Positions 48,061 to 49,185 of a stretch of DNA of 64,000 nucleotides are shown here, piece by piece; the stretch's first letter is position 1; each line of letters begins with the position of its first letter. The stretch comes from Luteibacter sp. 9135 (GTDB lineage: Bacteria; Pseudomonadota; Gammaproteobacteria; Xanthomonadales; Rhodanobacteraceae): positions 1,116,001-1,180,000 of the forward strand of contig NZ_JQNB01000001.1 of assembly GCF_000745005.1 (NCBI RefSeq), given 5' to 3'. Under the pieces are notes generated by a model. That model was not told the DNA's origin. It did not search any database and saw only the letters and a program-made list of their open reading frames with translations. Made by a program: the position numbers and the translations under genes.

Positions 48061-48065
48061 GAAGG

Positions 48066-48992
48066 CTAAAACCGTGCCACCTTCAACCCGAAGTCGTCAG
48101 CATATCTATCCATGTAAGCACGTAGTTCGTCCGCTTCCTCTTCCGTGCTCGTCATTTCTATGGGAACGCGGCCGCCCAAGTGCGCCTGAGCGCTATTCAG
48201 CCACTTGAGTGCGCCCCCCCTGCTTCGTCTTACACGTGTCGCTTCGATCAGGATAGGTTCTAGAAGGTCAGGCCGTGGATACCACGAGATCGGCCGATGG
48301 ACGGCCTTGTCGTTCCATCGCACCATGTTCGGCAAGTGGGCTGCGGCGAGTTCACTGTCAAGAATACTGGAGCGGGTCCAGTCGGCCAGCCTGGACAGGT
48401 CGCCGTTGGGCGATCGCTGACGGTGACGGGTGGGCACCACCAGCCCTAGCGTCGCTGCACCCTCGTTCTTGATCATCTGAAAGCACGGTGCCATGTCGGT
48501 GTCATTCGACACAATGACAACGTGCCCTACGTCACCCTTGACCACATCCCGATAAGCATGAAGGGCAAGGGACACATCCGACTGTTTCTCCTCGACCTTC
48601 CAAATATCGATCAGTGGCGAATCGGGGATATCTACACCCTCGATGACCTGACGCGCTCGAACCGGGCGCAGGTCGTAGTAACCCTTGATGACCTGTATGG
48701 CATCGCCCAGATGCCCTGCGAGCGCCTGATGGTAGGCCGTTTGGCAAGCGAGAGAATCGTTCGCCTTCGCCAGTTTCGGGAGGATCGGCGCCGTGAAGAA
48801 CTTCAGAGCGAGCGGCGCCAATCGATACGGCCGAGGAGCGCCATCATCTGAACTGAACGACGTACGGATGACGTGATCGATCAGCGCGAGTGGATTCAGC
48901 CACTTATCATGCGACCGTTTCAAGCAGCCGTAATATAGGTTGTATCCGTCGATGTAGACCCGCGTGAGCGGCCCTGACGCATCCGTGCTCAT
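48066..48992 (-). CDS. NYN-domain protein with MbcA/ParS/Xre-like C-terminal domain
   Basis: A 308-residue protein. Residues 10-215 are a NYN (PIN-like) ribonuclease domain: D15 in RVYIDGYNLYYG, E135-K136-x2-D139 in EEKQSDVSLALHAY, and D164/D166 in IVSNDTDMAPCF. These acidic residues match the metal site. Residues about 244-305 resemble the MbcA/ParS/Xre (DUF2384) toxin-binding domain: ALKWLNSAQAHLGGRVPIEM, then TEEEADELRAYMDRYAD. I infer a fused nuclease and toxin-antitoxin-like domain. Base composition is clearly lower in G+C than its neighbours, which suggests recent acquisition. The start at 48992 has GGAGATGGGAA before it. A role in RNA decay or defence is speculative. Confidence 0.75.
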   Translation of the reverse strand: MSTDASGPLTRVYIDGYNLYYGCLKRSHDKWLNPLALIDHVIRTSFSSDDGAPRPYRLAPLALKFFTAPILPKLAKANDSLACQTAYHQALAGHLGDAIQVIKGYYDLRPVRARQVIEGVDIPDSPLIDIWKVEEKQSDVSLALHAYRDVVKGDVGHVVIVSNDTDMAPCFQMIKNEGAATLGLVVPTRHRQRSPNGDLSRLADWTRSSILDSELAAAHLPNMVRWNDKAVHRPISWYPRPDLLEPILIEATRVRRSRGGALKWLNSAQAHLGGRVPIEMTSTEEEADELRAYMDRYADDFGLKVARF

Positions 48993-49011
48993 TTCCCATC
49001 TCCATATACGC

Positions 49012-49036
49012 AAAAACCGCCCGTTTTACGGGGCGG
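49012..49036 (-). terminator. Intrinsic terminator between pagL and the NYN gene
   Basis: On the minus strand: CCGCCC(C)GT-AAA-ACGGGCGG, an 8-bp stem with one bulge, followed by TTTTTG. It lies about 150 bases past pagL and only about 20 before the NYN start, in the transcript from the promoter at 49101-49128. Confidence 0.75.
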
Positions 49037-49094
49037 CCTTTGCCCCCAAAGCTTTCCGCGTTCTTGTCGCAGAGTCACTTCGGGTTAGTCGTTG
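49012..49094 (-). ncRNA. Possible small RNA or attenuated leader of the NYN gene
   Basis: A strong promoter (49101-49128) predicts a transcript starting near 49094 that runs into the terminator at 49012-49036, giving about 80 bases. No reading frame with a ribosome site lies in it. It may be a free small RNA, or a leader whose terminator decides whether the NYN gene is read. Sequence alone cannot separate the two. Confidence 0.4.
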
Positions 49095-49100
49095 GCTCCA

Positions 49101-49128
49101 ATCATAGTCACATCGACCAAGCTGTCAA
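49101..49128 (-). promoter_or_regulatory. Sigma-70-like promoter TTGACA-N16-TATGAT
   Basis: On the minus strand: -35 TTGACA (49128-49123), 16-base spacer and -10 TATGAT (49106-49101). It is one of the closest matches to the vegetative consensus in the window and lies between pagL and the NYN gene. Confidence 0.65.
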
Positions 49129-49185
49129 TGCCGCCTATGGATCGCAAGCCTCGGCTGAGAACAGACTCAAGCCTGAAGGTTGACG

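Follow-up and report, generated by a model that had tools for sequence, protein, structure and literature searches.

A single open reading frame of low G+C content lies between emrB and pagL in the genome of Luteibacter sp. 9135, and it raises the question of what its product is and whether that product works alone. We addressed this question in the window, by which we mean the whole 64,000-nucleotide stretch of DNA analysed, and in related loci (given here with the prefix L).

The open reading frame joins an NYN domain to a DUF2384 domain

The open reading frame is a real gene: it specifies 308 amino acids, is preceded by a good Shine-Dalgarno sequence and has many homologues. It comprises the following features:

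48066..48992, minus strand: NYN-DUF2384 fusion ORF, 308 aa (Shine-Dalgarno, homologues, Pfam, structure model)
48282..48971, minus strand: predicted NYN/PIN-like ribonuclease domain, residues 8-237 (Pfam, PADLOC HEC-09, alignments, fold; D15, D139, D164 and D166 invariant)
48087..48278, minus strand: DUF2384 (Xre/MbcA/ParS C-terminal) domain, residues 239-302 (Pfam and antitoxin fold)
49000..49003, minus strand: Shine-Dalgarno GGAG, read in the sequence, directly after a terminator (see below)

A preliminary description of this DNA had proposed an NYN ribonuclease domain followed by a C-terminal DUF2384 domain, and our analysis bears out both assignments. The NYN profile PF01936 matched at 31.1 bits, against a curated cut-off of 24.2, and DUF2384 (Xre_MbcA_ParS_C) also matched above its Pfam curated cut-off. 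Residues D15, D139 and D164 were invariant in both the 40-row and the 87-row alignments. An AlphaFold2 model of the fusion protein, built from 87 sequences, was confident (pLDDT 95.6, pTM 0.90): its N-terminal part fits the NYN domains of MARF1 and VPA0982, the latter (2qip) being the top fold match, and residues 240-302 superpose on the toxin-binding domains of solved DUF2384 antitoxins. A sequence search with the family profile also retrieves the Xre antitoxin of P. putida (E 1.8e-4). The helix-turn-helix (HTH) of Xre-type antitoxins is absent, the N-terminus of the fusion protein being NYN by Pfam and by fold.

These features point to an NYN-family endoribonuclease, with RNase activity predicted from sequence. 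According to the passages of PMC11346440 drawn on here, the CRISPR-associated NYN RNase of B. fragilis is a Mn-dependent ssRNA endonuclease whose activity is abolished by D13A; D15, D139 and D164 match its D13, D118 and D143 in order, with equal spacing of the last two. The B. fragilis enzyme, MARF1 and VPA0982 have catalytic aspartates and fold in common with the window protein, but they belong to CRISPR or eukaryotic contexts, and the source passages on them mention no DUF2384. The NYN region also matched HEC-09 (PDLC04163), a candidate anti-phage family of PADLOC, at 1.7e-16 over residues 12-237, and the DUF2384 tail lies outside this match. HEC-09 was likewise matched by all five NYN-only proteins scanned, and phrog_7929 by all three proteins tested. 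We know of no RNA part for HEC-09.

The fusion is a known combination that arose once or nearly so

The preliminary description had found no standard family with this combination of domains, a statement that does not hold. A protein search with the fusion protein returned 771 homologues at E ≤ 0.001, and a precomputed domain column gives both domains to 96 of the best 120 of these. DUF88 is the older name of today's NYN family PF01936. Fusions of DUF2384 with LK-nuclease (DUF88) already stand in the Fig. 2 legend of Anantharaman et al. 2010 (PMC2848206), which calls DUF2384 another HTH; the relevant passages of that paper present VPA0982 (2qip) as the structural representative of DUF88 and do not mention an RNA leader. 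In a tree of 132 rows (one of 133 did not enter), 80 fusions and two NYN-only rows formed one clade (support 99/95), and the other 50 NYN-only rows fell outside it, indicating that the fusion arose once or nearly so.

A leader RNA and an intrinsic terminator precede the gene

Three further features lie upstream of the gene in the window:

49010..49043, minus strand: intrinsic terminator hairpin between leader RNA and ORF (terminator script, folding)
49044..49093, minus strand: leader RNA core, an AACGACUAACCC tail plus a P1/P2 hairpin with an ACAAGAA loop (fold, and the R1 and R2 models defined below)
49101..49128, minus strand: sigma-70-like promoter, TTGACA-16-TATGAT (11 of 12), seen in the sequence and ending 7 nt before the leader

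The locus had been described as a possible single-gene module. It does hold a lone protein gene, but a leader RNA and a terminator stand upstream of that gene, as they do in 47 of 49 loci, namely the window and 46 of 48 fusion-clade loci (among them L032, which is without the DUF2384 tail). The NYN-DUF2384 fusion was known already; what the earlier reading missed is the leader RNA with its terminator. One of the two exceptions, L085, has no upstream DNA; the other, L072, keeps a terminator remnant and has a leader copy 1.4 kb away.

The leaders of the fusion loci follow one order: a sigma-70-like -10 box, then, mostly 6-7 nt later, AACAACUAACCC, the P1/P2 hairpin, the terminator, the Shine-Dalgarno sequence and the ORF. 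The core is a structured RNA of about 50 nt, and each of the 47 sequences, when folded singly, left its tail unpaired and formed both a hairpin and a terminator. A -10 box with five or six of six matches was present in 21 of 47 loci, compared with 6% of shuffles, and the gap from the -10 box was 6-7 nt in 38 of 47. A script that searched for terminators ahead of the ORF detected one in 37 of 39 fusion loci; in 35 of these the distance from the start of the terminator to the chosen start codon is 37-63 nt, and in L047 and L068 it is 142-147 nt. We saw no fixed place for a leader peptide, ATG being present in 18 of 47 cores. In Salinivibrio socompensis two tandem leader copies precede one NYN-DUF2384 gene (L054:5262-5487), the only doubled case seen, and at L025:4542-4619 a second leader RNA lies before an NYN gene fragment, 5.3 kb upstream of the main locus.

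The leader covaries and is inherited with the gene

Fifteen of 23 pairs in the fusion leaders had changed on both sides, a number that none of 500 shuffles reached, and there were 107 covarying cells versus 39 in shuffles. When the pairing partner was slid by one base, pairing fell from 89.5% to 58-59%. RNAalifold, run without a supplied structure, recovered P1 and the terminator. RNA and protein distances were correlated over 40 rows (Mantel r 0.795, 0 of 2000 permutations); one leader alignment leaves out L040, which is identical to L039.

We built two models of the RNA. R1 was trained on the fusion leaders including the terminator, with the window among them; R2 was made from the fusion leader core only, without terminator and without window. 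In 87 sources totalling 1.45 Mb, R2 gave 54 matches, each at a leader or at an additional copy in the same locus (L023, L025, L054, L072). Across 33 fusion genomes at E ≤ 0.01 it gave 34 matches in 32 genomes. Every one falls 52-151 nt ahead of an NYN match, which is a fragment in one case, and none falls elsewhere; in these genomes, then, we found the element nowhere but beside the gene. R2 was built from leaders of these same 33 genomes, so that only the lack of orphan matches is independent. Of 89 plus-strand R1 matches of at least 31 bits, 87 were within 150 nt of an NYN match, in a set that leaves out the minus-strand mirror and weaker matches and in which 46 loci are R1 training rows. 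Below about 45 bits R1 was rejected as a genome-wide detector, since it also picks up ordinary terminators: matches at E ≤ 0.001 occurred in 75 of 369 class genomes. Ten loci with R1 matches in wider genome scans were inspected, and three lay beside NYN genes.

The fold of the window leader (z -4.55) was reached by none of 200 shuffles. Its core is a divergent subtype with an ACAAGAA loop in common with L006; the loop of L044 is ACAAGUA. R1, whose training set contained the window, scored the window leader at 48.6 bits; with R2 the window core was the best match of the 64 kb, yet at 11.7 bits and E 0.53. The window leader is therefore a divergent copy, identified by position, promoter, terminator, conserved tail and fold, with weak detection by R2.

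Searches further afield returned little. R2 found nothing in 398 phylum genomes at E ≤ 1e-4, the window's own genome included, and this result has little weight for that reason. A distant blastn search of plasmids with the window leader gave only two 29-nt matches, and an IUPAC leader pattern gave none in viral contigs. Scans of the leader at 14 places gave no Rfam match over the gathering threshold (the window, L025, L066 and also L056 permissively; L013, L018, L024, L029 and L034 at gathering; L046, L055, L056, L057, L067 and L074 at E ≤ 0.5). Sub-threshold matches were RF02631 (Hrs13) on L056 and L066 (21-22 bits, cut-off 52, E 0.001-0.002), in an alignment carried by the terminator hairpin, and P9, RNAI and AgrB on L066 at about 20 bits each. 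The RNA sRNA-Xcc1 has a plasmid habit. A text search of its paper found no mention of NYN. Among the matches listed in the open-access literature (subscription papers and preprints being outside this scope), we found no paper in which NYN proteins are linked with an RNA lying upstream or with type III systems.

NYN-only relatives carry leaders of like plan

Most of the 38 NYN-only loci have, by eye, a leader of like plan in other letters, for example ACGACUCACCCCUUGCGG...CCGCUUGGGGC plus terminator; that of L101 looks different. In 35 aligned NYN-only leaders (L082, L086, L059, L101 and L046 left out), 17 of 21 pairs covary, which 0 of 500 shuffles matched. R1 found 33 of 36 NYN-only leaders at 31 bits or more, none of them in its training set, and R2 found none at E ≤ 0.05. 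Because R2 finds none, the case for kinship of the two leader types depends on R1, a model that takes in the terminator, and on the plan they share; on this basis, common descent is likely. The DUF2384 tail would have been gained once, or nearly so, by an ancestral RNA-plus-NYN locus. In the window's genus, inspection by eye shows a promoter-like box, a hairpin and a terminator ahead of NYN-only genes; in several of these loci (L115-L121) the hairpin that precedes the terminator is different and shorter. Copy L114, from a Klebsiella plasmid, has the terminator, and its upstream part folds differently.

The gene is an insertion between emrB and pagL

Comparison with relatives delimits one further feature:

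48061..49185, no strand assigned: insertion stretch between emrB and pagL

The fusion gene is a one-gene insertion at this site. In 18 of the 21 relatives fetched, emrB and pagL are direct neighbours 46-964 bp apart (a distance that takes in the last emrB codons in four of the 18), and in the window the gap is 1.13 kb. The G+C content of the gene is 57.9% against 67.4% in the window, in agreement with the earlier observation of a low-G+C gene standing alone between efflux genes and pagL, and this lone gene is probably of foreign origin. The larger gaps in relatives hold other sequence; with this and the variation in length, the site may be a small insertion hotspot. Neither a tRNA target site in the window nor convincing direct repeats flanking the insertion were found.

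The fusion occurs in one of 23 genomes of the window's genus and in one of 197 of a family sample, the other matches in both stopping near residue 240; NYN-only relatives (L115-L121) are present in six of the other 22 genus genomes. Elsewhere the gene is mostly at unrelated sites and on plasmids. The query protein matched 405 plasmid records, 39 of them over at least 80% of its length; 203 Klebsiella and 37 Escherichia records are among the plasmid matches. A 5.7-kb Klebsiella plasmid carries an NYN-only gene with a terminator leader (L114:684-1438).

No conserved protein neighbour emerged: clustering of ORFs within five genes, with crude ORF calling, gave no cluster in more than 7 loci, and the largest (7 loci) lies at varied positions. 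A small conserved upstream protein was rejected as a partner, the short ORFs beside plasmid copies looking unrelated by eye, and so was Fic, found in 4 of 133 neighbour proteins, two of these in Marinomonas loci. (The neighbour set is 133 of 137 proteins; four from L038, whose site is shared with L033, were left out.) No separate DUF2384 gene lies beside NYN-only genes in the flanks examined; the strong DUF2384 matches came from fusions that are split or frameshifted (L009, L041) and from an additional copy in L023.

Alternative readings of the protein and of the RNA

Two alternatives concern the protein. Many relatives are named 6-hydroxy-3-succinoylpyridine 3-monooxygenase (nicB) in databases, but that the product is this metabolic enzyme (HspA/NicB) is hardly credible: only the names point there, the domains found in the window protein are NYN and DUF2384, and the relevant passages of a review state that detailed HspA kinetics were not done, that the HspA level is not raised by nicotine and that HspB does the reaction. 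The name looks like an annotation error that has spread. It is very improbable, too, that the locus is an antitoxin-RNase hybrid whose DUF2384 tail recruits or neutralises a RES-type toxin, although the tail fits the fold of RES-binding antitoxins well and the window's own genome has two RES genes elsewhere, none near the fusion gene. The type II RES-Xre, ParST and VPA0770-VPA0769 systems (6gw6, 9r35, 6d0h, 8gug) have the C-terminal DUF2384 fold in common with the window protein; unlike them, the window locus has no N-terminal HTH and no RES neighbour, and its DUF2384 is fused to a nuclease. A RES gene lay within 5 kb of the fusion in none of 33 fusion genomes and within 10 kb in two, and seven had no RES match at all at E ≤ 1e-5, in a chosen part of the fusion loci that includes drafts, whose contig ends may hide some RES genes; nor was RES among the 25 commonest families listed for the 133 neighbour proteins. 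These genomes thus do not support the RES-like partner suggested in the preliminary description, and the tail probably serves in assembly or in binding RNA or a partner rather than in RES neutralisation.

As to the RNA, we consider it most likely that it restrains the RNase. The next candidate, possible but clearly less probable, is a leader acting only in cis, as an attenuator, a riboswitch or a processing site for NYN autoregulation, with no free short RNA. It would fit a terminator between promoter and ORF in one transcript and an RNA not found away from its gene, and the AbiF leader also acts in cis by termination (PMC12373285, in the part drawn on here). Against it, the core shows no conserved pairing with the 5' arm of the terminator, the only arm compared (mean duplex energy -8.04 vs -7.38 in shuffles, 38% of which pair as strongly as the median), and the 5' tail, which is conserved and unpaired, suggests that a protein recognises it, though the tail may instead reflect the context of the start site. 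That the RNA is instead a cofactor, scaffold or guide leading the NYN RNase to a target RNA is unlikely: one-to-one linkage, co-inheritance and an excess of RNA, which the terminator would give, are all compatible with such a role, but by eye the aligned leaders contain neither a variable guide-like segment nor arrays.

Discussion

Our best reading, to which we give an even chance, is an RNA-restrained RNase in a mobile two-part locus laid out like type III toxin-antitoxin (TA) systems and AbiF. We prefer it because an NYN enzyme with the same aspartates cuts ssRNA and because the order RNA, terminator, RNase is that of type III systems and AbiF. The upstream promoter would make a short structured RNA that mostly ends at the intrinsic terminator, and occasional read-through would yield the mRNA for the NYN-family endoribonuclease. 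Expressed in excess, the RNA would bind the RNase and hold it inactive, in the manner of ToxIN and AbiF-RCd22; its loss, for example when synthesis is stopped by phage or when a plasmid is lost, would free the RNase to cut RNA.

In AbiF-RCd22 of Clostridioides difficile, the RNA is shown to bind and neutralise the toxin, and the passages of PMC12373285 on its layout describe a promoter, a structured ncRNA, a Rho-independent terminator and the toxin ORF, as in the window. That system differs in its Abi_2 toxin, its two RNA motifs and its own Rfam family, and its text has no NYN (PMC12373285). Type III systems (ToxIN, CptIN, TenpIN), as presented in the passages of PMC5086642 drawn on here, have the same order of RNA, terminator and RNase and are likewise carried on plasmids and chromosomes; they differ in having another toxin family and tandem antitoxin repeats, where NYN loci have a single unit (two in L054). 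The type III feature of an RNA before the ORF holds for 47 of 49 loci by sequence and covariation, not by transcription.

Several observations speak against an RNA-restrained RNase. There is one RNA unit per locus outside L054; a purely cis-acting attenuator would yield equal conservation; R2 detects the window core weakly (E 0.53) and, at E ≤ 0.05, none of the NYN-only leaders; and the upstream part of L114 folds differently. In addition, the part of a Pseudomonas survey drawn on here (PMC12447246) links HEC-09 presence with phage susceptibility, not resistance.

On a broader scale, we put it a little short of even that HEC-09-type NYN nucleases, whether or not they have the DUF2384 tail, form the protein side of a new class of RNA-protein TA systems unrelated to ToxN, Abi_2 and AvcD. 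This class would have its own undescribed antitoxin RNA families and would be spread, mostly in Proteobacteria, over plasmids, chromosomes and viral contigs. With the conserved RNA partner, a protein family that is large, common and badly named acquires a testable mechanism; a doubtful annotation (nicotine monooxygenase) would also be corrected. Should the RNA prove to be an antitoxin, RNA-controlled toxins would include the PIN/NYN fold beside the nucleases ToxN and Abi_2. A solitary 'antitoxin domain' would then belong to a toxin, and what is predicted as a one-gene defence would possess an RNA half that has gone unseen and that clones and screens must include.
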